Of a DNA stretch of 45,871 bases, positions 979-44,714 are shown piece by piece (within the stretch, counting starts at the first letter, position 1; every line of letters starts with the position of its first letter). A program made the position numbers and the translations under genes. The notes below the pieces were generated by a model. It saw nothing but the letters and a program-made list of their open reading frames with translations, did no database searches and was not told where the DNA came from. This DNA is from a virus: IMG/VR virus record IMGVR_UViG_3300046167_000773, positions 1 to 45,871 of that record, one strand, 5' to 3'.

Positions 979-2073
979 TCAATATTCCTCTAGTTCAAAA
1001 CCAGAACTATCTTTAGTAGTTTTGCCGCCCCAAGAAAAATCATTGAGATTAACCCCTGCATCCTGCGGCGCTTTGTTCACGGCATCAGCCTCTTCTTCGC
1101 ATTGCGGCCTTAGCTCCTTGCGTAGATTCGGCTTCCAATCGTCGCCATACATATCTTCTTTAAAGTTCCTGCCGTTACCCACGTAGAATTTCATAGTACC
1201 CTCAAACCTCAAGTGACGATTTTTTTCAACCAGCAGTTCAATGTCATGCTCAAAATCCAGCACGTTGCGATCATCTTCATCAATGGGATTACCTTCGGCC
1301 TGATCATTAAGAATTTCAGCGCGCATCTTGTTGTGCCAAATCATTAGAACGTTATCGGGCTGATCAGTCAGTGAGCCGCTGCCGCGCACATCATATTTAG
1401 ATGGACGATAAGCTCTTTTCACATCACCACTTGGCTTCCTTACGTGGTGAACCAGGACGATATGCATTTCGGTAGCCTTGGCAATCGCAATGATGTTTGC
1501 TGTGAAATCCCGTTCAACGTCATGATCGGAAGTCACGCCACATTTCTGCAAGTTGTCCAGTACGAGAAATTTGCAGCCCTTGGCGGCGAAGGCCCAGAGT
1601 GCGCCATAAACCGTTTCCGGCTTTACAGTTCCATAGTGCTTGTAAAACCATGAGTCCGCAGCCGTGAAATGCCTTGCTGCTGCCGTTAGCTCTTTGGCAG
1701 TTATATTTTCCTTCGCAAACGCCTGGTGAGCGAAAATCTCTAGCTGCGAATCAAGCTCCATCTCTAGCGACATGACACCTGTGGGAAATCGCTCCGCGAC
1801 ATGCAAGAGCAACTGACACGTTAAGGTGGATTTCATGTGGCCATTCATGCCCGCTAGCAAAGTTACCTGTCCGTCACGAAAGGCAAACTTACCTTTGGTT
1901 GATAGCCACGGCATATCCATCAGATCATCTTCGTTAGCGGATAGATTCTCGATAGCCTTCTCAAGCCCATCCTCAATCCTTACCAGCTTTGACTCATGAG
2001 CTTCCGCCAGGAGCTTCCGTTGCTTCTGCATGTTGAAGTTTTCGATAAAGGATTTATCTTGAATTACCTGCAT
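979..2073 (-). CDS. DnaB-like replicative helicase (RecA-fold ATPase)
   Basis: This 364-residue protein has a RecA-type core. Walker A is GMNGHMKST (residues 75-83), Walker B is CKFLVLDNL (Asp173), there is a double-His motif IVLVHH (205-210), and a DVRGSGSLTDQPDNVLMI stretch (228-245) typical of DnaB/RepA-type hexameric helicases. No separate DnaB N-terminal domain is evident, so it is a short phage-style helicase. The tail from about 300 is acidic and low in complexity. Its ATG overlaps the stop of the initiator gene (TGATG), which fits coupled synthesis of initiator and helicase as for lambda O and P. Expected role: unwinding at the phage replication fork opened at the iteron ori in the neighbouring gene. 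Confidence 0.85.
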   Translation of the reverse strand: MQVIQDKSFIENFNMQKQRKLLAEAHESKLVRIEDGLEKAIENLSANEDDLMDMPWLSTKGKFAFRDGQVTLLAGMNGHMKSTLTCQLLLHVAERFPTGVMSLEMELDSQLEIFAHQAFAKENITAKELTAAARHFTAADSWFYKHYGTVKPETVYGALWAFAAKGCKFLVLDNLQKCGVTSDHDVERDFTANIIAIAKATEMHIVLVHHVRKPSGDVKRAYRPSKYDVRGSGSLTDQPDNVLMIWHNKMRAEILNDQAEGNPIDEDDRNVLDFEHDIELLVEKNRHLRFEGTMKFYVGNGRNFKEDMYGDDWKPNLRKELRPQCEEEADAVNKAPQDAGVNLNDFSWGGKTTKDSSGFELEEY

Positions 2074-2732
2074 CAGTTTCTAACCCTCCTTCCTTCGCTG
2101 CCATTGCCCCTAGTAGCAATCTCATCTTCCCATCGCTCTTGATTAATGAATGTGCTGGGGAGAGGAATATACTTCTCTTCATCGAATCTGAACGGCCTTA
2201 GCTTTAATCTCTCGATTGCGAGCTTTTGCTTCTCAGGCGTTAACTTAATGAACTTCTCAAGCGCGGGCTTCTTCGACTTCTTCTTCGGGTACAGCGCCCA
2301 GAATTCATCAAATGCACGTATACTTTGTTTCTTGTTGTTCTTATGTTGAACATCCGGCGATTTCGCCACATCTGATCCGGCGATTCCGACACATGCATCC
2401 GGCGATTCCGCCACATGCAGAAACACTGAGTTTACGTGCCAATATATAGTCCTATCCCAAGGGTTTTTGCCAAGTTGCGATTTCGCCACATGGCCATCTT
2501 CCTCAAGTTTCCTCATAATCCTTCTTATCTGATCCACAGATAGGTAGTTGTGCCACTCTGCTAACGATTCATAGCTGTGTCGCACCCACCATTTGCCCTC
2601 GTGATAGAACTCATCAGGCCCAGCTTGCGACTCACGCTGAGACTGCAAGTAAGACAGATTCCAGATGATCAAAGCTGCGTTAACGCCGACTAAATCGGCT
2701 AACCTTGGATCAAAAGAGTGATGATGTTTCAT
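2073..2732 (-). CDS. Replication initiator / replisome organiser (lambda O-like role)
   Basis: This 219-residue protein has an N-terminal winged-helix-like part (residues 1-100, with SYESLAEWHNYLSVDQIRRIMRKLEEDGHV). A short linker of about residues 105-130 is encoded by the iteron repeats. The C-terminal domain begins FDEFWALYPKKKSKKPALEKF and runs to LPSTFINQERWEDEI, a hallmark of phage replisome organisers that recruit helicase. A strong RBS (GGAGG) precedes the ATG. The gene sits directly upstream of the helicase with a one-base overlap. Three 20-bp dyad repeats inside the gene are read in different frames, so they are conserved as DNA. This points to the origin lying within its own initiator gene, as in lambda. 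Confidence 0.85.
   Translation of the reverse strand: MKHHHSFDPRLADLVGVNAALIIWNLSYLQSQRESQAGPDEFYHEGKWWVRHSYESLAEWHNYLSVDQIRRIMRKLEEDGHVAKSQLGKNPWDRTIYWHVNSVFLHVAESPDACVGIAGSDVAKSPDVQHKNNKKQSIRAFDEFWALYPKKKSKKPALEKFIKLTPEKQKLAIERLKLRPFRFDEEKYIPLPSTFINQERWEDEIATRGNGSEGRRVRN
2352..2491. repeat. Iteron array, candidate replication origin inside the initiator gene
   Basis: Three near-identical 20-bp repeats occur at 2352-2371, 2375-2394 and 2397-2416, each centred on the dyad GGCGA-TT-TCGCC (the latter two carry small changes). A partial fourth copy lies at 2477-2491. Start-to-start spacing is 23 and 22 bp, about two helical turns. Because the spacings differ by 1 and 2 modulo 3, the repeats are translated in three different frames, so protein-level selection does not explain their identity. 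A T-rich/AT-rich stretch (about 2310-2350) follows on the 3' side of the gene and could be the unwinding element. The arrangement matches lambda ori in gene O. Confidence 0.8.
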
Positions 2733-3989: not shown

Positions 3990-4403
3990 TTCAAACCTCC
4001 CGCAAAATCTGCCCATCGCTTTAAGTGGGATTTAAGCTGCCCCAGTCCCTCTCCATCAGCACAAACGAACCTCTGAACCCTGTTGTCGTAATACCGGCTA
4101 AACTGCCGTACCTCCATCGTTTCTGGACAACCCTCCACGACGTAAACGACAAATTGCTTGCCTTCACTTGTCAGCTTCTCAAACATGATTTCCTGCCCTC
4201 TTCCTAACGAACCGCCTTTCGCTTTCCACTCAATCATCAAAAACTTGCCGCCTATCTCCACCTATCGCGTCAACATCACTCATACCGATTTTGCGCGGGA
4301 AGCATTCAGCGAAGGTTTCAATTTTTGGGCGGAGCGTTTTGTTATAGCAGCCGTTTTTAGAACAGTCATAGCGCATCGGGTTATACCCGTTTGCACTAGT
4401 CAT
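3986..4403 (-). pseudogene. PD-(D/E)XK (VRR-NUC-like) nuclease split by a +1 frameshift
   Basis: Two overlapping frames together make one recognisable nuclease. The first part (4403-4230) reads from MTSANGYNPMRYDC through RPKIETFAECFPRKIGMSDVDAI, then leaves frame. The second part (4261-3986) continues VEIGGKFLMIEWKAKGGSLG and on to a helical C-terminus. Removing one base from the CC pair at 4261-4262 (GG on the coding strand) joins them as SDVDAI-VEIGGKFLMIEWK. That restores the D...ExK catalytic signature, which the frameshift otherwise cuts in two. ATG 4403 overlaps the upstream gene and has GGAG nearby. It could be a genuine mutation, an assembly error, or less likely a recoding site. Family role: resolving or trimming branched DNA in replication and recombination. 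Confidence 0.7.
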
Positions 4404-4776
4404 TAAGCAGAACTCCAGTTTTGTAAGGCTTGCCTTTTTCTTCAGCCCAACGAGCAGCAGCGGCTTTACCCTCAGCAATAGCCTGATCAATTTCCCTCGC
4501 CGCAAAAAACAAATCTGGGCGCAACATTTTCAGCGTTATCTCACCCTCTGAAATGCTCTCAATCATCATGGCGGACTTGACGTTAAAGAAATCTTGAGCC
4601 TTTTTAATCTTCTGAACTTGAGGGTAGCTAAGCGTTAAAAACGCAGCCGCCGCATAATAAGAACCCAAGTAATCAAAAGCTTTTTCGTTGTAGGGAGCCG
4701 CAAGCTCTAACATCGCTAGGCGTCTCTCTTTTTTATCCTTTGCAGTCTTTGCAAATAACGGATTGATACTTCCCAT
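4396..4776 (-). CDS. Unknown first protein of the leftward early operon
   Basis: This 126-residue protein is the promoter-proximal gene of the leftward operon, with AAGGAAG directly before the ATG. It is predicted mainly helical: KKERRLAMLELAAPYNEKAFDYLGSYYAAAAFLTLS, a Lys-rich middle, and an Ala-rich C-terminal helix (EIDQAIAEGKAAAARWAEEKG). It has no cysteines and no membrane segment, and I recognise no family. Its position implies immediate early expression once repression is relieved, so a control or host-interaction role is possible but not shown. Confidence 0.7.
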   Translation of the reverse strand: MGSINPLFAKTAKDKKERRLAMLELAAPYNEKAFDYLGSYYAAAAFLTLSYPQVQKIKKAQDFFNVKSAMMIESISEGEITLKMLRPDLFFAAREIDQAIAEGKAAAARWAEEKGKPYKTGVLLND

Positions 4777-5911: not shown

Positions 5912-6642
5912 TTAGTCTAGAAGGTTCTGATCTTCGCCAGCTTGACGATGCAGCAAAAAAATCTGCTGGAATGTTGGAGCTTCACAATAAATGGTACTGG
6001 CAAGTCGCACCGAGACTGGCCGCATTTAAAAAGTCTAACCCAACCATTTCTGTCATCACTGAAATCATTACGCTTGAGGAAACCCATTGCGTTATGCAAG
6101 CAAGGCTCACTGATGAAAATGGCCTGATACACGGCATTGGACATGCCTTAGAAGGACGATCTGACAGAGGCGTTAACAGTACAAGCTATCTAGAGAATGC
6201 TGAGACAAGCGCAATCGGACGCGCACTTGCCAGCACTGGCTGGAGCGGCGGTGAATATGCTAGCGCCGAGGAACTTCTGATTGCACTTGAGAACCAATCA
6301 GACAACTACAAGGAAGCGCTATGGCTGATGGCCATGGGCGATCCAAGCAGCTTCAGCGAGTATGTATCAGGATTAAGCGAAGAGCAGCAGACAGAGGCGT
6401 TTAGCGGCGCTGCCAAGGGAAAGATAACGCACTTTAAGAATAGGTGGCGATCCCTGCAAAGCAGCTTCTCTGAGGCTCTTAACAGCTACGCGGAAGCTCT
6501 GATGCAACACTGCCGCAATGATGATGCCGATGGCGTCAAAGAGGTTATTAATGAATTGACGGAATATGAAGTACAACGCGTCAAGGATTTGATCAGCACC
6601 GAAACGAACCACAAAATTTCACTAATGGTAAAAGGATCATAA
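5908..6642 (+). CDS. Putative single-strand annealing / ssDNA-binding recombination protein
   Basis: This 244-residue protein has a core (residues 25-125) of WYWQVAPRLAAFKK, a beta-rich segment TEIITLEETHCVMQARLTDENGLIHGIGHA, and the conserved motif SYLENAETSAIGRALASTGW. That motif recurs in phage proteins annotated as ERF/Sak-type annealing or ssDNA-binding proteins. The C-terminal half is helical and acidic and may be an interaction domain. The start overlaps the preceding stop. Together with the NinB-like gene it would give the phage its own recombination system. The motif is recognised, but the SSAP activity is inferred. Confidence 0.5.
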   Translation: MISLEGSDLRQLDDAAKKSAGMLELHNKWYWQVAPRLAAFKKSNPTISVITEIITLEETHCVMQARLTDENGLIHGIGHALEGRSDRGVNSTSYLENAETSAIGRALASTGWSGGEYASAEELLIALENQSDNYKEALWLMAMGDPSSFSEYVSGLSEEQQTEAFSGAAKGKITHFKNRWRSLQSSFSEALNSYAEALMQHCRNDDADGVKEVINELTEYEVQRVKDLISTETNHKISLMVKGS

Positions 6643-7293: not shown

Positions 7294-7300
7294 CTCTAAT

Positions 7301-7576
7301 ATGTGGATTTCTCGCAACAAATACCTCAACGATACTGGGCTATCAAAAGGCGTCTTTAGAGGCTGGATTGACAGGCACCTCGTTTCTGGCATTCACTATA
7401 AAGTCATAGGACATACTACTTTAGTGAACCCAGAGGCCATTGACGGATGGATTACCCAGCTGGAATCAGGCCACACGGAGCGGGCCTCAGAATCAGAGTA
7501 TTCAAGGCTGGAAAAGTCGCGCACCAAGAAACACTCAAAGGTGATTGTGGCTCTCGACACCTCAAGGCAGCTATAA
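7301..7576 (+). CDS. xis: Excisionase-like small DNA-binding protein
   Basis: This 91-residue protein starts MWISRNKYLNDTGLSKGVFRGWIDRHLVSGIHYKVIGHTTLVNPEAIDGWI, the winged-helix layout of phage Xis/AlpA-type proteins that recognise DNA with a short HTH and bend att DNA. The last 45 residues are basic and overlap the integrase start by 130 bases, so int and xis are translationally entangled. Such overlap would keep their ratio fixed. No clear RBS is present, and a hairpin precedes the start. Confidence 0.65.
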   Translation: MWISRNKYLNDTGLSKGVFRGWIDRHLVSGIHYKVIGHTTLVNPEAIDGWITQLESGHTERASESEYSRLEKSRTKKHSKVIVALDTSRQL

Positions 7577-8481
7577 AGCGCAGAGCAGAGCTTCTAGCAC
7601 TTTACAAGCGCGGCCTATCCATAACCCAAGAATCCATCGTTAGCTTTAAGGACGCTGCACAAGAGTACATGAATCTCTTGGATGCGAAGCACTCTACCGT
7701 CACTAGCTACCGAAACATCATTAGGCGTTATTGGCTCCCCAAATTTGAGCAGCTTCCAGTAACGACAATCAGCACCAAAGACATAAAACTTGCGCTAGCC
7801 TCGTTTGACGTTTCACCCAAGACTAAGAAAAATCTATTGATCCCGCTGCGAGGCGTACTAGATCACGCTGAAGTAAACCCCAATCCCGTCAACGCTGTGA
7901 AAATCAAGCAGCGTCAAAAGGAGCAGGTTCAGCGCTACACCCCAGCAGAGCGCGACAAGCTTCTCAGCCAGCTAGATGGCGATATTAAGTCTTACTTCGT
8001 TCTGATGTTTGGATGCGGACTCCGCCCAGGAGAAGTGCTTGGCCTCAAATGGTGTGATTACAGGGATGGACAACTTAACATCGAGAAGCAGATAACCCGC
8101 CGAAGGCTGGAGCCATCAACTAAGACAGGCTACCGACGGAGAGTGTTTGTGCCTCAGTGGGTACGGCCTCACCTCAATCTTGAAACCCGATTCACCTCAG
8201 AATGGATATTCGCTAACGCGAAAGGGAATCACCATCAGGATACGGATAGGTTCAATGAGGCATGGGCTGAGGCGCACAAGAGAGCCAAGGTGCGTTATCG
8301 GATACCTTATGTCTGTCGCCACACCAGAGCAGCCGAACTACTCTCCAGCGGCGTCCTACCACCCGCAGCAGCAGCCCAGCTAGGCCACTCCGTTGAAATG
8401 TTCTTTAGGACGTATTCAGAGTGGATAGAGGATTATTCTCGGGACGATCAGGTATTTGATACACCCTACTTAAAAGCGTAA
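7447..8481 (+). CDS. int: Tyrosine-recombinase integrase with N-terminal arm-binding domain
   Basis: This is a 344-residue protein. Residues 3-53 (YPAGIRPHGAGLRI...) form a small beta-rich arm-type DNA-binding domain like that of Min27-type phage integrases. Residues 65-150 are the SAM-like core-binding domain. The catalytic domain follows, with Arg193 in GCGLRPGEVLGLKW, Lys226, His292 and Arg294 in CRHTRA, His314 in LGHS and nucleophile Tyr323 in RTYSEW, so the active site is complete. It lies about 600 bases from the tRNA-Asp-type attP core. The arm domain is duplicated in the HNH gene just downstream (57% identity over 51 residues by eye). Confidence 0.93.
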   Translation: MDYPAGIRPHGAGLRIRVFKAGKVAHQETLKGDCGSRHLKAAIKRRAELLALYKRGLSITQESIVSFKDAAQEYMNLLDAKHSTVTSYRNIIRRYWLPKFEQLPVTTISTKDIKLALASFDVSPKTKKNLLIPLRGVLDHAEVNPNPVNAVKIKQRQKEQVQRYTPAERDKLLSQLDGDIKSYFVLMFGCGLRPGEVLGLKWCDYRDGQLNIEKQITRRRLEPSTKTGYRRRVFVPQWVRPHLNLETRFTSEWIFANAKGNHHQDTDRFNEAWAEAHKRAKVRYRIPYVCRHTRAAELLSSGVLPPAAAAQLGHSVEMFFRTYSEWIEDYSRDDQVFDTPYLKA

Positions 8482-8490
8482 TATGCGAGA

Positions 8491-8511
8491 ACTGACTGCG
8501 CCAACAGTCAG
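8491..8511 (+). promoter_or_regulatory. Hairpin between integrase and HNH gene
   Basis: CTGACT (8492-8497) pairs with AGTCAG (8506-8511) around an 8-base loop, directly after the integrase stop. It lacks a T-run, so it more likely affects mRNA stability or partial termination. Confidence 0.3.
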
Positions 8512-8545
8512 CCCCCTAACCATCAATCACATAAGGAGTGTGAAA

Positions 8546-9175
8546 ATGGCTGCAACAGATACTAACACCGAAAAAGTAAAATGGCCCGCTGGAATCCGCC
8601 CTCAAGGTGCTGGATTGCGTATCTTTGTTTATAGAGAAGGCAATCTTGCATACTCAGAGACAATGAAAGGTGATTGTGGCCCAGAGCATTTACGTCAAGC
8701 TGTAGATCGAAGAAACCATTTACTCCAATGGCATACAGAGCCTCATAACGATGCTGATTTTGAGTCAAAAGGGTTTTACTCTCCGCAAGAGCTTCGCACC
8801 GCGCATAGCAAAATGTTTGTTGCTGCAAGAAAGCGCGATGAATACACCCTCACCCCAGAAGATGAACGAGAATTAGAGTTAAAGGCTGGGGGGATGTGCC
8901 AGATAACTGGAATTTCATTTGCCCCTAAGCCCGTTGATAGCTACTTCAGAAATCCATACGCGCCCAGCTTGGATCGCATTGACTCATCAAAGGGATACCA
9001 AGAGTGTCAAACAAGTGTCAAAAAAAAGAGCCTGTTTTCACAAGCCCTTGTTTTATATAGATTAACAGTGAGGAAAATGGCGGAGCGGACGGGACTCGAA
9101 AAGTTGCCCCTATGTTTCTCTGAGTACCAATGTGAGCAAATAAGCGGCTTTAAAGGGTTCTATGTACCTCTGTGA
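8546..9175 (+). CDS. HNH endonuclease carrying an integrase-type arm-binding domain; C-terminus overlaps attP
   Basis: This 209-residue protein starts at the ATG at 8546, which has AAGGAG nearby (a longer frame to 8483 is unsupported). Residues 13-63 (WPAGIRPQGAGLRI...GDCG...) are a paralogue of the integrase N-terminal domain. Residues about 110-155 carry an HNH signature: GGMCQITGISF and then YAPSLDRIDSSKGYQ. After KGYQ the usual family continuation (ENvrlVc.. and following) is missing and is replaced by 57 unrelated residues that read through the att arm repeats, a minus-strand terminator and the attP core. The nuclease domain is therefore probably incomplete. After integration its 3' end would be exchanged for host sequence at the tRNA. 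Confidence 0.7.
   Translation: MAATDTNTEKVKWPAGIRPQGAGLRIFVYREGNLAYSETMKGDCGPEHLRQAVDRRNHLLQWHTEPHNDADFESKGFYSPQELRTAHSKMFVAARKRDEYTLTPEDERELELKAGGMCQITGISFAPKPVDSYFRNPYAPSLDRIDSSKGYQECQTSVKKKSLFSQALVLYRLTVRKMAERTGLEKLPLCFSEYQCEQISGFKGFYVPL
9003..9021. repeat. Left pair of arm-type att repeats
   Basis: Two direct copies of AGTGTCAA lie at 9003-9010 and 9014-9021, 11 bases apart, about one helical turn. Similar copies lie on the other side of the core. Paired arm sites flanking a core are expected for a tyrosine integrase with an arm-binding domain. Confidence 0.5.
9020..9047 (-). terminator. Intrinsic terminator of the leftward structural operon
   Basis: Read on the minus strand, GGGCTTG (9047-9041) pairs with CAGGCTC (9034-9028), a 7-bp stem with two G-U pairs. 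The loop has six bases and is followed by eight T (9027-9020). It lies about 140 bases beyond the last structural-operon gene and inside the opposing HNH ORF, so it would end late transcription before it enters integrase. Confidence 0.6.
9078..9100 (-). other. attP core matching the 3' end of tRNA-Asp
   Basis: Read on the minus strand, these 23 bases start TTCGAGTCCC and end CTCCGCCA: T-loop, 3' half of the T-stem, acceptor strand, discriminator G and CCA. They match the 3' end of gammaproteobacterial tRNA-Asp, whose 5' acceptor strand is GGAGCGG. Upstream sequence does not pair to form a T-stem, so this is a tRNA fragment, the typical attP identity block that restores the host tRNA on integration. 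Phage genes on both sides show an unoccupied attP. Confidence 0.8.
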
Positions 9176-9183
9176 AAGTACGG

Positions 9184-9204
9184 AGTGTCAAGAGCCACTG
9201 TCAA
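9184..9204. repeat. Right pair of arm-type att repeats
   Basis: AGTGTCAA (9184-9191) and ACTGTCAA (9197-9204) are spaced 13 bases apart on the other side of the attP core from the 9003/9014 pair and in the same orientation. They lie at the end of a small leftward ORF. Confidence 0.45.
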
Positions 9205-9349
9205 ATTCAGAACCCTTACGGGCTTCCTCAAGGATAGATTCAGCCAGTTCAACTATCTGCTTTTGGCTCTCAGCCATCGACTTAATAGAGCGCAGCAATT
9301 CCTCAATCGCGTAACGCTCAATATCCTCTGGCGGCTTAGTTCTAGTCAC
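9188..9349 (-). CDS. Small coiled-coil protein downstream of the lipoprotein
   Basis: This 53-residue ORF starts at GTG 9349 inside the last codons of the lipoprotein gene (GTGACTAG). The sequence PEDIERYAIEELLRSIKSMAESQKQIVELAESILEEARKG is a strongly amphipathic helix. The stop lies in the right att arm repeats. There is no recognised family. Overlap with the upstream gene and protein-like composition support it. It could be a small virion or regulatory protein. Confidence 0.55.
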   Translation of the reverse strand: MTRTKPPEDIERYAIEELLRSIKSMAESQKQIVELAESILEEARKGSEFDSGS

Positions 9350-38334: not shown

Positions 38335-38556
38335 ATGGAAATGGAAACTGGATGTTCAATTAAAGACGGCTGGCTAGTATTAGAAGCAGGTATGTTAGGT
38401 GATACAGAAATGACAATGCGCCTAGAAGGTGGCCATGGTGAGCAGGTTGAAATCTACTCTCCCGCTGGAAGGCAGACAGTCGCTTTGAGCAATCTACCAA
38501 TAAATCTTTGGCATTACCTAAAGGCGCTCCGAGAGCAGACTGAGGGGAAATATTAA
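38335..38556 (+). CDS. Moron cassette protein 1, unknown
   Basis: This 73-residue protein is counted from the ATG at 38335 (AGGAGAACGAT upstream; a longer frame starts at 38311 but lies before the RBS). MEMETGCSIKDGWLVLEAGMLGDTEMTMRLEGGHGEQVEIYSPAGRQTVALSNLP is beta-rich and is followed by a short helix (LWHYLKALREQT). Not recognised. It lies on the strand opposite the structural operon and is coupled by TAATG to the HTH gene. Confidence 0.6.
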   Translation: MEMETGCSIKDGWLVLEAGMLGDTEMTMRLEGGHGEQVEIYSPAGRQTVALSNLPINLWHYLKALREQTEGKY

Positions 38557-38792
38557 TGCCACCTAGAGACTTGCGAAAAGGCAACTACGGCCAAACCACT
38601 GGCATTTACGACAACCGATACCATCTTGAACAGATGGTATTGCACTACTTCTATCGTGAAGTAAGGATGCAGACGGACATTGCCAAGCTTGTAGGAACGT
38701 CAATTGGCGTTGTCCACAAGATTATCCACACCGTTGAGCTTCGGGAAAAGCCCGAGAACCCACCCTTAAAAACACTGGATATAGCCTCATGA
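38556..38792 (+). CDS. Moron cassette HTH protein
   Basis: This 78-residue basic protein has a central helix-turn-helix (LHYFYREVRMQTDIAKLVGTSIGVVHKIIHTVEL), resembling resolvase/sigma-type HTHs. It may bind the palindromes upstream of its own operon and of other phage control regions. It is translationally coupled on both sides (TAATG, ATGA). Confidence 0.6.
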   Translation: MPPRDLRKGNYGQTTGIYDNRYHLEQMVLHYFYREVRMQTDIAKLVGTSIGVVHKIIHTVELREKPENPPLKTLDIAS

Positions 38793-41135: not shown

Positions 41136-41282
41136 ATCGCCTCCATAACACCTTTGGTATTCCTAAAGCGCCAAAAATGACGACTTGATAGGCCGAGGGT
41201 ATGTTTATCATACTGTGATCCAAGTCCCCCCCTATGCTTTTTCGGTCTAAGCTTAGATCATTCTGGAATAAGCCTCTGATAT

Positions 41283-41349
41283 GTCGCCAAATGCTACATG
41301 TTTTTATGTACAGGTAGCCAAATCCTACATGTCGCCAAAAGCTACACAC
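41283..41349. repeat. Three direct ~19-bp repeats upstream of TerS
   Basis: GTCGCCAAATGCTACATGT (41283-41301), GTAGCCAAATCCTACATGT (41314-41332) and GTCGCCAAAAGCTACACAC (41331-41349) are variants of one word, spaced 31 and 17 bp. Their place upstream of the small terminase fits TerS-binding (cosB/pac-type) sites or a late-promoter activator array. Confidence 0.6.
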
Positions 41350-41719: not shown

Positions 41720-42082
41720 ATGCCTACACATAACACGCTAGCAACTGAATTTGAAAACGCCAAATCATTCGCCGCTGATTGTCGCGCTGAGATCATTACG
41801 CAATGGATGGAAAGCGGCGGTGATCGGTACGCCGATCTAGATGACATGATCTACACGCGGGCGCATGAAGAAGCCGACAGCCTTTGCATCTATACCCACG
41901 ACAACCGGATGCTGCTTCGCACCCTTGAGGATGCGGGCGTTGTTGATGACTACACCGATTTATTGTGCGGTGATGAGGATCACGAGCGGCGCATTGTAGT
42001 CATAGCCTACACCTTTTGGTGTCACGAAATAGGCGCGGCTTTGCATGAGCTTTTTGCAGAAGTTAAAAGTGAGGTGGCGTAA
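41720..42082 (+). CDS. Accessory operon protein 1, unknown
   Basis: This 120-residue acidic protein includes SFAADCRAEIITQWMESGGDRYADLDDMIYTRAHEEADSLCIYTHDNRMLLRTLEDAGVVDDYTDLLCGDEDHERRIVVIAYTFWCHEIGAALHELF and is probably mostly helical. AACTGGAG stands nine bases before the ATG, the same start-associated word as later genes in the operon. Similar acidic proteins occur in plasmid and phage accessory operons near anti-restriction genes, but no function is recognised. Confidence 0.65.
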   Translation: MPTHNTLATEFENAKSFAADCRAEIITQWMESGGDRYADLDDMIYTRAHEEADSLCIYTHDNRMLLRTLEDAGVVDDYTDLLCGDEDHERRIVVIAYTFWCHEIGAALHELFAEVKSEVA

Positions 42083-42183
42083 TGAACCGCTTTGACCTGG
42101 TGTATCTCGCCTTCATGACTTCAACAGTCGGCTTTTGCTTAACCATGCTGGCCGCTTCACTAATCATCAACTGGAGGCTTTGA
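42082..42183 (+). CDS. Very small membrane protein (33 aa)
   Basis: MNRFDLVYLAFMTSTVGFCLTMLAASLIINWRL is almost entirely one hydrophobic helix. It starts in a TAATG overlap with the previous gene and ends one base before the next ATG, containing that gene's GGAGG. A coupling peptide or tiny membrane effector is plausible. Confidence 0.5.
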   Translation: MNRFDLVYLAFMTSTVGFCLTMLAASLIINWRL

Positions 42184-42184
42184 C

Positions 42185-42367
42185 ATGAAAGGCTTTAGTC
42201 ATGTTCAGCTAATTGAATCCAAAATAAACGCGGCCAAAGATCAGGCCACACTCGCCCGCTTAGAAGTCACCACCACGCGACTTTATGAGGCGGGATTGAT
42301 TACAGCAAAACAGCTTGTATTTTTAGACGCCGCGCTTTGCTTGCACCCGCATTATCTAGGCGACTGA
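42185..42367 (+). CDS. Accessory operon protein 3, small helical
   Basis: This 60-residue protein, MKGFSHVQLIESKINAAKDQATLARLEVTTTRLYEAGLITAKQLVFLDAALCLHPHYLGD, is all-helical and reads like a small two-helix adaptor. AACTGGAGG lies eight bases before the ATG. Not recognised. Confidence 0.6.
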   Translation: MKGFSHVQLIESKINAAKDQATLARLEVTTTRLYEAGLITAKQLVFLDAALCLHPHYLGD

Positions 42368-42386
42368 TTCGCCATCCAGCCCTAAC

Positions 42387-42443
42387 CACCCGCTTAATTG
42401 CGGGTTTTTGGGTGCCGGCCATTGGCCACTTTCAAAACTGGAG
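42387..42443 (+). repeat. Terminator/start-associated cassette, copy 1
   Basis: ACCCGC-TTAATT-GCGGGT followed by TTTT (42388-42409) is a complete intrinsic terminator. GGCC-ATT-GGCC (42417-42427) forms a second hairpin, and TTCAAAACTGGAG (42431-42443) provides the Shine-Dalgarno nine bases before the next ATG. The same arrangement recurs before the next two genes. Confidence 0.8.
42388..42409 (+). terminator. Intrinsic terminator within the accessory operon
   Basis: The 6-bp GC-rich stem ACCCGC/GCGGGT with a six-base loop is followed by T residues at 42405-42409. No promoter is visible between it and the downstream gene, implying read-through control. Confidence 0.7.
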
Positions 42444-42452
42444 TAAGACACA

Positions 42453-42857
42453 ATGCAAAATGTTTTTAGCGTAACCGTAAGCCCCGAAGAAAACGATTTT
42501 TTAAGCGCTTATTTCCATTGCATGATTTGGGCAGACAGCCCAGAAGGCGCAAACCTTTTCCTTGAAGATTTGCACCCTGAGTTTAACCGCCAACACACTA
42601 TAGAGGCGCTTGGATTCTTCCTGAAATATGAGCATGCAATCGGCTCTGAAAACATAAGTCAGGCTGGCCATGATCTATGGTTAACGCGTCAAGGCCACGG
42701 TACTGGCTTCTGGGATCGTGGAGATGCATACAACGATTTAGACAGCGGTTACGACTTCGCGGACATGCTAACGCAGGGCGCGAAAACCTTGGGACATTCT
42801 GACATAGAATTTATTGAGTCTAGCCTGATCCGTGAAGGTGTAAACATAGATAGCTAA
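42453..42857 (+). CDS. Conserved phage/plasmid accessory protein (HDLWLTRQGHGTGFWDRG family)
   Basis: This 134-residue protein contains GHDLWLTRQGHGTGFWDRG (about residues 72-90), a motif that recurs in small phage and plasmid proteins of unknown role, followed by an acidic LDSGYDFADMLTQGAKTLG. The first half is helical and acidic. It is preceded by cassette copy 1. The family is recognised as conserved but uncharacterised; it often sits among anti-restriction-type accessory genes. Confidence 0.7.
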   Translation: MQNVFSVTVSPEENDFLSAYFHCMIWADSPEGANLFLEDLHPEFNRQHTIEALGFFLKYEHAIGSENISQAGHDLWLTRQGHGTGFWDRGDAYNDLDSGYDFADMLTQGAKTLGHSDIEFIESSLIREGVNIDS

Positions 42858-42883
42858 ACGACAGGCCACAAACCACTAAACTT

Positions 42884-42942
42884 GCGCCCGCTTAACTGCG
42901 GGCTTTCGCCGTACCGGCCTCTGGCCACATTCAAAACTGGAG
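42884..42942 (+). repeat. Terminator/start-associated cassette, copy 2
   Basis: GCCCGC-TTAACT-GCGGGC then TTT (42886-42906), a GGCC-TCT-GGCC hairpin (42916-42926), and TTCAAAACTGGAG ending eight bases before the ATG. Nearly identical over about 57 bases to copy 3 and closely similar to copy 1. Confidence 0.8.
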
Positions 42943-42950
42943 CGTTTAAA

Positions 42951-43586
42951 ATGGACTCAAATATTCAAACGGCTTTGCAAGGATTCGGCTTTACTATCGA
43001 GAATACCGGCGGCGGTTGTGACGCATGGGTTAAACAGTTTGACGGCAAGCGCAATCCAAGCGTTGAGCTTTCATGTGATCCTTACTTGATGATAACGCAG
43101 AACGGCGGCGCGGATATTGAAGAAAGGGATATTGACACCTGCGGCCTAACTTTGGGTTATTACGAATATTCAGTGGACGAAAAAAGCCACTTTTATACAA
43201 CAGTTGAATTTCTCAGCTTTGAGGGATTGCTTTTATTGCTAGTCAAAATGTTTTCTACGGATCAACCCGATTTTCCAGACTTCGATAACTGGCTTGCATT
43301 TGAGTTAGCAGCTAGAGATTTGCGGCAACATGGGTTTCATCCCGATTTAGAAAGGGATGACACAATGCCGTGCCTCTCATATCAAGGCGCATATTCGGAC
43401 GAAGGTTTCCCGCGTATTGAAATATGGTTTAACTGGTACGACTCCGATTTAAGCGAACAAGATGTAAAGCTTTACACGGTGACGCATTACAGTCCCAAGG
43501 GTGAGATCATTCTGGAACAAGAATTCGACAATTTAGAGCAAACGCTAACCGTTGCGCGGACTTTGCAAATACTAGCATCTAGCTAA
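42951..43586 (+). CDS. Accessory operon protein 5, unknown
   Basis: This 211-residue protein is counted from the ATG at 42951, which follows the cassette RBS (a longer frame from 42882 would read through the cassette and is rejected). It has two similar halves of alpha/beta type. The N-terminal FTIENTGGGCDAWVKQFDGK is a motif seen in small phage/plasmid proteins. The second half carries LEQEFDNLEQTLTVARTLQIL. It is acidic. Function not recognised. Confidence 0.65.
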   Translation: MDSNIQTALQGFGFTIENTGGGCDAWVKQFDGKRNPSVELSCDPYLMITQNGGADIEERDIDTCGLTLGYYEYSVDEKSHFYTTVEFLSFEGLLLLLVKMFSTDQPDFPDFDNWLAFELAARDLRQHGFHPDLERDDTMPCLSYQGAYSDEGFPRIEIWFNWYDSDLSEQDVKLYTVTHYSPKGEIILEQEFDNLEQTLTVARTLQILASS

Positions 43587-43605
43587 TTCCACATAGAGCC
43601 AATTT

Positions 43606-43664
43606 GCGCCCGCTTAACTGCGGGCTTTCGCCGTACCGGCCTCTGGCCAAATTCAAAACTGGAG
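43606..43664 (+). repeat. Terminator/start-associated cassette, copy 3
   Basis: GCCCGC-TTAACT-GCGGGC then TTT (43608-43628), GGCC-TCT-GGCC (43638-43648), and ATTCAAAACTGGAG ending nine bases before the next ATG. It matches copy 2 almost base for base, although the flanking genes are unrelated. Confidence 0.8.
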
Positions 43665-43673
43665 TACCACCTC

Positions 43674-43862
43674 ATGAAGCTATTAAAAACATTCGCAAAC
43701 TCTACCCATCGAACCGCCGCGATTCATTCCGTGGGCGGTAGTTACATTGTCCGCTGCTATGATCGGAGCCAGCGCAACGGGCTAATTCGCACCACTAGCG
43801 CGCCGGATTTCGACAGGGCTTGCGCTTTAGGCGCGGCTTTTGTTTACCAGTTGCAAGCTTAA
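43674..43862 (+). CDS. Accessory operon protein 6, small unknown
   Basis: This 62-residue protein, MKLLKTFANSTHRTAAIHSVGGSYIVRCYDRSQRNGLIRTTSAPDFDRACALGAAFVYQLQA, shows a small beta-beta-alpha pattern and is basic. It is preceded by cassette copy 3. Not recognised. Confidence 0.6.
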   Translation: MKLLKTFANSTHRTAAIHSVGGSYIVRCYDRSQRNGLIRTTSAPDFDRACALGAAFVYQLQA

Positions 43863-43880
43863 CCAGGAGAGGCCCACTTG

Positions 43881-44117
43881 ATGGATTCTTACGATATGCG
43901 ACGGGATCACGCGCCCATATTGATCCCCTTTGAAGATAGCCAGCAAGGCGGCAAGCCAGCCAAAGCCAAGCGAGGCGCTTCCAGATCGGGAAAGCCTCAG
44001 AGGTTATCCCAAGATCAGCAAATCGCGGACGCTTGGAATTCAATCTATGGCGGGTTAAACCTCGCCGGTATGGTTGCGCGGATCGTCACCGATTCGGGGC
44101 AAGACATTGTGAGATGA
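43881..44117 (+). CDS. Accessory operon protein 7, basic small protein
   Basis: This 78-residue protein is counted from ATG 43881; TTG at 43878 is possible (AGGAGAGG upstream suits either). The N-terminus is acidic, then a Lys/Arg/Gly-rich middle (GGKPAKAKRGASRSGKPQRLSQDQQ), then a helix (IADAWNSIYGGLNLAGMVARIV). The basic linker suggests nucleic-acid contact. It is the last gene of the operon, followed by tandem terminators. Confidence 0.55.
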   Translation: MDSYDMRRDHAPILIPFEDSQQGGKPAKAKRGASRSGKPQRLSQDQQIADAWNSIYGGLNLAGMVARIVTDSGQDIVR

Positions 44118-44128
44118 TCCAATGGCCT

Positions 44129-44148
44129 CCGATATTGATCGGTTTTTT
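44129..44148 (+). terminator. Intrinsic terminator 1 of the accessory operon
   Basis: CCGAT-ATTG-ATCGG followed by six T, 12 bases after the last stop codon. It is followed by CTCAG...CTGAG, a second weak stem, and the whole unit is repeated downstream. Confidence 0.7.
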
Positions 44149-44175: not shown

Positions 44176-44199
44176 AACCGATCATTTCATCGGTTTTTT
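44176..44199 (+). terminator. Intrinsic terminator 2 (tandem copy)
   Basis: AACCGAT-CATTTC-ATCGGTT followed by T residues: a stronger 7-bp stem that duplicates terminator 1. The stretch after it (CTCAG...CTGAG) is also repeated, so about 50 bases were duplicated. Confidence 0.75.
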
Positions 44200-44284
44200 C
44201 TCAGTTCTGGGCATTTTCTGAGATATTTCCGATAATTTGGCAAATGTACGGACATTTTCGACGATTTTGACGATTTTTTTGGGG

Positions 44285-44384
44285 GACTGGTGAAAATCGC
44301 GGGGGGGACTCGTGAAAATCTCCATCAGACTCGTGAAAATCTCCGATCAGACTCGTGAAAATCTCCGACAGGCTCGTGAAAATC
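44285..44384. repeat. Five phased direct repeats (GACTCGTGAAAATC)
   Basis: Copies start at 44285, 44307, 44328, 44350 and 44371. The middle three are identical over 14 bases; the first and last differ by one. Spacings of 22, 21, 22, 21 bp put every copy on the same face of the helix. The array ends exactly at the stop of the HNH gene, with two G-runs (44281-44285, 44301-44307) at its left edge. Candidates are protein-binding iterons for packaging, a second origin or partition-like site, or a phage control element. Confidence 0.75.
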
Positions 44385-44714
44385 TCAACCCCAGCCTTCA
44401 GGAAATCCGTCCAGGTTTGTTGGCTTAACCTTACTGTTCTCAACCCAACTGGCCTTCTTACTGTTGCAGCTATGGCAAACCATTTGCAGGTTACTCAACG
44501 TTAAAGCTAGATCAGGGCGCTTCACACGAGGCTCGATATGATCCACAACTGCTTGCGCCCGCTGGCCTCGCCTCACCGTAAAGTCTAGCCTTCCACCGCA
44601 GAACGCGCATGGCCTATTCGCAGCCTTCCATTGCGCCCTCACTTTGTTCCTGAGATTTCGCCACGGCTGAGATTGATAAAACCCGTCAAGTCTATCGGCC
44701 ATAGCCATACTCAT
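44385..44714 (-). CDS. HNH endonuclease
   Basis: This 109-residue protein has CAFCGGRLDF (first zinc pair), AQAVVDHIEPRVKRPDLALTLSNLQMVCHSCNSKK, the complete DH...N...H/CxxC signature of HNH nucleases, and a short YQSQPWRNLRNKVRAQW N-terminus seen in phage HNH proteins that assist terminase at cos. The start is ambiguous (ATG 44714, 44708 or 44702). It is last in the leftward early operon and ends at the direct-repeat array, so cutting near that array is an attractive idea. Confidence 0.85.
   Translation of the reverse strand: MSMAMADRLDGFYQSQPWRNLRNKVRAQWKAANRPCAFCGGRLDFTVRRGQRAQAVVDHIEPRVKRPDLALTLSNLQMVCHSCNSKKASWVENSKVKPTNLDGFPEGWG

Follow-up and report, generated by a model that had tools for sequence, protein, structure and literature searches.

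Conservation of a phased direct-repeat array between convergent operons in a temperate phage and a sister phage

The DNA studied, called the window in the following, is the IMG/VR virus record IMGVR_UViG_3300046167_000773 over its full length of 45,871 bp, and derives from a temperate phage. In agreement with a preliminary description of this DNA, a short array of direct repeats lies between two convergent operons (Table 1). On one side are small rightward genes that extend to position 44117, on the other a leftward gene set with replication genes, NinB-like, NinG, methylase and HNH genes, which, as read from the gene order, probably forms one early operon. The last base of the array, 44384, directly abuts the stop codon of the HNH gene (44385-44387, minus strand), as had also been described. 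The HNH protein shows a weak match to the solved HNH endonuclease 5h0m (E=0.0099); a structure prediction was of low confidence (mean pLDDT 50) and was left out of the reasoning. The rightward operon has an intrinsic terminator, and for the leftward operon no intrinsic terminator is recognisable before or within the gap, neither in the window nor in the related phage G004. An AT-rich stretch at 44254-44280 flanks the array in the window and is missing in G004.

Table 1. Position of the array and of the features discussed in the text; the remarks refer to strain L053 and sister phage G004 where these are named.
Feature	Position	Strand	Evidence and remarks
Phased array, five GACTSGTGAAAATC units	44285..44384	+	Spacing 22/21/22/21 bp; kept in L053 (five copies, 21 bp) and G004 (six copies, 21 bp)
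HNH endonuclease gene, 109 aa	44385..44714	-	PF01844 and PHROG HNH families; last gene of the leftward operon
Intrinsic terminator, rightward operon	44178..44199	+	AACCGATCATTTCATCGGTTTTTT hairpin and T-run; kept in G004
Second terminator-like hairpin, rightward operon	44129..44148	+	Window only
Small dyad AAATGTACGGACATTT	44243..44258		Between terminator and array; altered form in G004 (alignment)
Conserved small gene, 62 aa, no assigned function	43674..43862	+	Convergent rightward operon; 90% identical in G004
Candidate cos (genome end)	41179..41192	-	Contigs L100 and G004 (L102/L104) have ends here; distance to the downstream TerS 44-57 nt
Three cos-proximal 17-bp repeats, type TGTAGCATTTGGCGACA	41282..41346	-	Kept in G004
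Iterons (22 bp x 3.1) within the O-like initiator gene	2351..2419	-	Likely phage origin

Copies of the 14-mer GACTCGTGAAAATC start at positions 44285, 44307, 44328, 44350 and 44371 of the plus strand. The three middle copies are exact, while the two outer ones carry one mismatch each (copy 1, GACTGGTGAAAATC; copy 5, GGCTCGTGAAAATC). As the C at position 16 is also invariant, we define the conserved unit as GACTSGTGAAAATC(G/T)C. The five phased direct repeats with a 22/21/22/21 spacing, as first noted, are confirmed by these coordinates, by TRF, which detects the array with a score of 139, and by a clustering statistic: counting 14-mers with at most one mismatch inside 100 bp gave 4 for the window and no more than 2 across 100 dinucleotide shuffles. 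The helical phase of the copies drifts by at most about 70 degrees, and the A4 tracts of the array are phased at 21 bp. The array had been described as bounded by G-runs, which does not hold, since a G5 run at 44281 flanks it on one side and a G7 run at 44301 is located between copies 1 and 2. The gaps between the copies differ in sequence (GCGGGGGG, TCCATCA, TCCGATCA and TCCGACA), and this variation is greater in G004. A scan of the window genome found no dispersed extra copies above chance, leaving the array as the single such locus, and the folding of the array as RNA revealed no excess of structure over shuffled sequences (z=0.51).

The array was found again in two relatives. A near-identical strain, L053, aligns to the window with 99.8% identity over 7.8 kb, and as this alignment spans both ends of the window, the assembled genome is either circular or circularly permuted. 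Its array (6172-6269) contains five copies at a spacing of exactly 21 bp. Sixteen aligned differences separate the two strains in the 7.8 kb, three of them inside the 100-bp array, which indicates that the array changes quickly. The second relative, G004, is a collinear phage of 39,239 bp and a sister species, which has most genes in common with the window; the identity amounts to 98% for TerS and TerL and to 94% for HNH. At the syntenic position it carries six identical copies of GACTGGTGAAAATC, again spaced by exactly 21 bp. A spacing of 21 bp, i.e. two helix turns, is thus kept in two of the three arrays, and the distance between array and HNH stop is zero in all three genomes. In G004, none of the 14 core columns but six of the seven spacer columns are variable, with a mean pairwise identity of 1.00 for the core versus 0.43 for the spacer. 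This contrast is not expected of a neutral minisatellite and argues for constraint on the 14-mer. Core position 5 is a G in all G004 copies and a C in the window and L053, with the exception of copy 1 of the window, which has the G.

A search in relatives, as recommended for the 14-mer in the preliminary description, finds the array beside HNH in both L053 and G004. Among the relatives sought via HNH, TerS, the 62-aa protein, the capsid protein and the motif itself, these two were the only ones with the array, and a comparison with phage or plasmid records yielded no meaningful DNA similarity. Repeat arrays of other kinds were met along the way. Among distant capsid relatives, the 92-kb virus contig L182 contains an intergenic array of 7.5 units of 17 bp (CTACAAGGGGGTTACCA, 1351-1478) with unrelated sequence, and other arrays had periods of 18 and 27 bp. 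In a further contig, three 20-bp GGAGGGTGAAAATTTGCCCA repeats (L213, 1480-1527) lie just upstream of a gene that precedes a terminase large subunit gene.

The island of small rightward genes (41720-44117 in the window, 5600-8000 in L104) differs for the most part between the two phages. A repeated leader precedes several of its genes, in which a terminator-like CCCGCTT..GCGGG hairpin is followed by a GGCC..GGCC palindrome and then by TTCAAAACTGGAGTA and the start codon. The island looks like a collection of exchangeable gene cassettes. The integrase gene and a second HNH gene (7296-9214) form one block, which G004 lacks as a whole and where the junction is sharp.

Overall, the array is real, conserved and constrained. 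It most likely represents a phased array of protein-binding sites, and the early proposal of a site array for a multimeric protein fits the invariant 14-bp core, the divergent spacers and the 21-bp phasing in two species. Its location exactly at the place expected for a leftward terminator, together with the phasing on one DNA face, the lack of RNA structure and the unique locus, leads us to tentatively favour a protein-bound roadblock or boundary that ends the leftward early operon. Here, a putative sequence-specific DNA-binding protein would occupy the helically phased tandem sites at the 3' end of this operon, and its protomers, side by side on one face of the DNA, would form the roadblock or boundary. 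Leftward RNA polymerase would be kept out of the convergent small-gene operon, and of cos and TerS beyond, so that the array would serve the leftward operon as the intrinsic terminator serves the rightward one. Binding to DNA rather than to RNA, the roadblock action and the existence of a binding protein are what we infer. Candidate binders among the conserved proteins are the HNH protein, a YdaS-like HTH protein (4396-4776), which matches PF15943 below the cut-off of this family, and a small HTH-like protein (38556-38792) without a family match, whose HTH is our reading of the sequence. As judged from the window and G004, the array travels neither with the integrase nor with the initiator.

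Several points speak against the roadblock. No conserved small protein is tied to the array, which leaves the binder putative, and a missing intrinsic terminator is also compatible with Rho-dependent termination or with wanted read-through. Moreover, the known protein roadblocks of phages, the stoperators, are sites distributed over the genome and not one array (PMC9283540), while many sites across the genome were not found in the window. A matching site is also absent from the divergent regulatory and promoter region, which weakens the case for a classical immunity repressor. A more elaborate version, which we consider improbable, is a protein-operated transcription valve, in which a multimeric phage protein occupies the 5-6 phased sites and stops leftward RNA polymerase, while its removal or override would time late expression or packaging. 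If true, the released early transcription would cross the small-gene island in antisense direction and reach into cos and TerS.

The main rival of the roadblock, possible but rather unlikely, is an iteron-like array for a replication protein, acting as a secondary origin or as a copy-control locus that titrates the initiator. A parallel for the latter is P1 incA, an initiator-titrating copy-control locus. The reading keeps this rank as the core of the array resembles a common iteron core. A scan of viral contigs for three GTGAAAAT motifs at about 21 bp detected 43 stretches, mostly of one family of near-identical arrays, and such GTGAAAAT arrays in viral contigs, with a spacing of ~20-22 bp, are mostly in-gene iterons of O-like initiators (among L191-L231). 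In both gene-typed family members (L202 and L221) the array is located inside the O-like initiator gene, and a further one (L196) adjoins a replication-initiator gene. The window array, too, has repeats separated by about two helix turns and is flanked by AT-rich DNA. However, it is neither located in or beside a cognate initiator gene nor inherited with it. The O-like initiator gene of the window (2073-2732) contains its own iterons, which differ from the array and are the likely phage origin. G004 has no match to this initiator but a Lin1244-type gene with different repeats of its own, and has nevertheless kept the array. Furthermore, the absence of the AT-rich stretch in G004 means that the array lacks an adjacent conserved unwinding region, and the GC skew does not clearly turn there. 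The second replication site envisaged earlier is therefore disfavoured by the swap of the initiator, and the suggested maintenance site by the absence of matches to a ParA-type ATPase and ParB (PF13614, PF02195) in the window and G004; a ParA/ParB partition centromere was rejected on the same result. In the initiator gene family of L202, L221 and relatives among L191-L231, the 21-bp in-gene iterons GTGAAAATTTTGCACTAGG encode a heptad, e.g. GSENFAL, and their copy number varies between records. Arm sites of an attP were likewise rejected, with the array about 9 kb from int and kept in G004, where the window integrase has no match.

That a host DNA-binding protein occupies the sites, or is soaked up by them as by a decoy, appears unlikely. 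The unique locus, the lack of a linked phage protein and the A4 tracts phased at 21 bp, which may bend the DNA, are consistent with it, but no host motif is known to match the 14-mer.

A packaging site worked on by TerS and the adjacent HNH protein had been among the leading ideas, and the probable location of cos speaks against it. The terminase is of the HK97 type, and TerL is nearest to those of HK022-like and 16-3-like phages, with about 46% identity. Contig L100 has its start 57 nt upstream of TerS, while the two ends of G004 join 44 nt upstream of it; in HK022 (49 nt) and AsXd-1 the distance between TerS start and genome end is 49-50 nt. A G-run is located about 40 bp before the candidate cos point, as in HK022, and a G7 run lies next to the candidate cos. 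Contig ends and HK022 geometry thus place cos most likely at the candidate site of Table 1, 3.1 kb apart from the array, and contigs L100 and G004 have their ends there, with none at the array. This candidate cos has conserved repeats of its own, and the small terminase of HK97 uses a single A-tract site of 15 bp, which lies 15-29 bp from the cut (PMC11331095). A site used in packaging by TerS, TerL and the neighbouring HNH protein, either for cutting or for auxiliary loading, would agree with the terminase type, with the resemblance of the window HNH to phage HNH nucleases and the employment of the HNH protein gp74 at cos by HK97, and with the G7-ACT at the start of array copy 2, which recalls the G7-ACT at cos. 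Yet BLASTP detected no significant similarity of the window HNH to the HNH of HK022, and with cos probably elsewhere we regard such a role as quite unlikely. The array is probably neither the place of the packaging cut nor the main replication origin.

An RNA element in the leftward transcript, i.e. a Rho loading site or an array for an RNA-binding protein, seems improbable. RNA structure at the level of shuffled sequences and a C-rich, G-poor strand in G004 (35% C, 16% G) would be in line with it, but G is not scarce in the array of the window (27% C, 24% G), the strictly kept purine positions and the helical phasing suit duplex DNA better, and an Rfam search returned sub-threshold matches only, which were regarded as chance. 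Very improbable is a translated heptad repeat (EIFTSLx) in frame after HNH: both L053 and G004 keep this frame open, and both core changes are synonymous there, but two such changes lack significance, and in the window itself the frame is lost at the 22-bp gaps. An RNA-guided array of the TIGR-Tas or CRISPR type with HNH as the nuclease, suggested by short interspaced repeats adjoining an HNH gene, can practically be dismissed, as alternating edge and loop repeats are missing, the 7-8 nt spacers share bases, and a Nop domain (PF01798) was not found. The exclusion of CRISPR in the preliminary description therefore stands, as does its gap length of 7-8 bp, whereas its claim of non-variable gaps does not. 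Transposon ends of the IS21 type, with multiple terminal repeats flanking istA/istB, were considered because of GTGAAAAT/ATTTTCAC pairs in three MAGs and found no clear support. Such motif pairs are rare (7 matches in 84,980 genomes) and the matches near chance; no full-score IS21 transposase was present in the three genomes tested, and no such gene was seen beside the phage array.

Tandem arrays of phased sites in phages are usually ascribed to origins, cos/pac or att sites. The array described here is common to two species with different initiators, one of them without an integrase match, and is probably not cos, which points to a further role for arrays of this type, at the boundary of an operon. 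The C/G difference at core position 5, concerted in all copies or almost all, offers a natural test of which protein reads the site. The array is a phased site array of a known kind in an unusual position, and the function proposed above is putative.

Among known systems, TIGR-Tas arrays are similar in having short interspaced repeats in phages near an HNH domain, but differ from the single repeat type, the non-independent spacers of 7-8 nt (9 nt in TIGR-Tas) and the lack of a Nop protein seen here. With the cos and TerS site of HK97 and HK022, the window has in common the kind of TerL, a G-run near the element and an HNH gene co-directional with TerS; its own probable cos, however, is remote from the array, and the HK97 site is single. 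The iterons of O-like and Rep-type initiators resemble the array as direct repeats of ~21-22 bp on one DNA face with the GTGAAAAT core (L202, L221, L196), whereas the array lies away from the initiator gene, survives an initiator swap and has no conserved AT-rich melting region. Compared with the stoperators of the mycobacteriophage L5 type, the array has its 5-6 sites at one locus, no linked repressor and a promoter region without a site, but shares with them short asymmetric sites in one orientation outside promoters, for which a block of elongation has been proposed.
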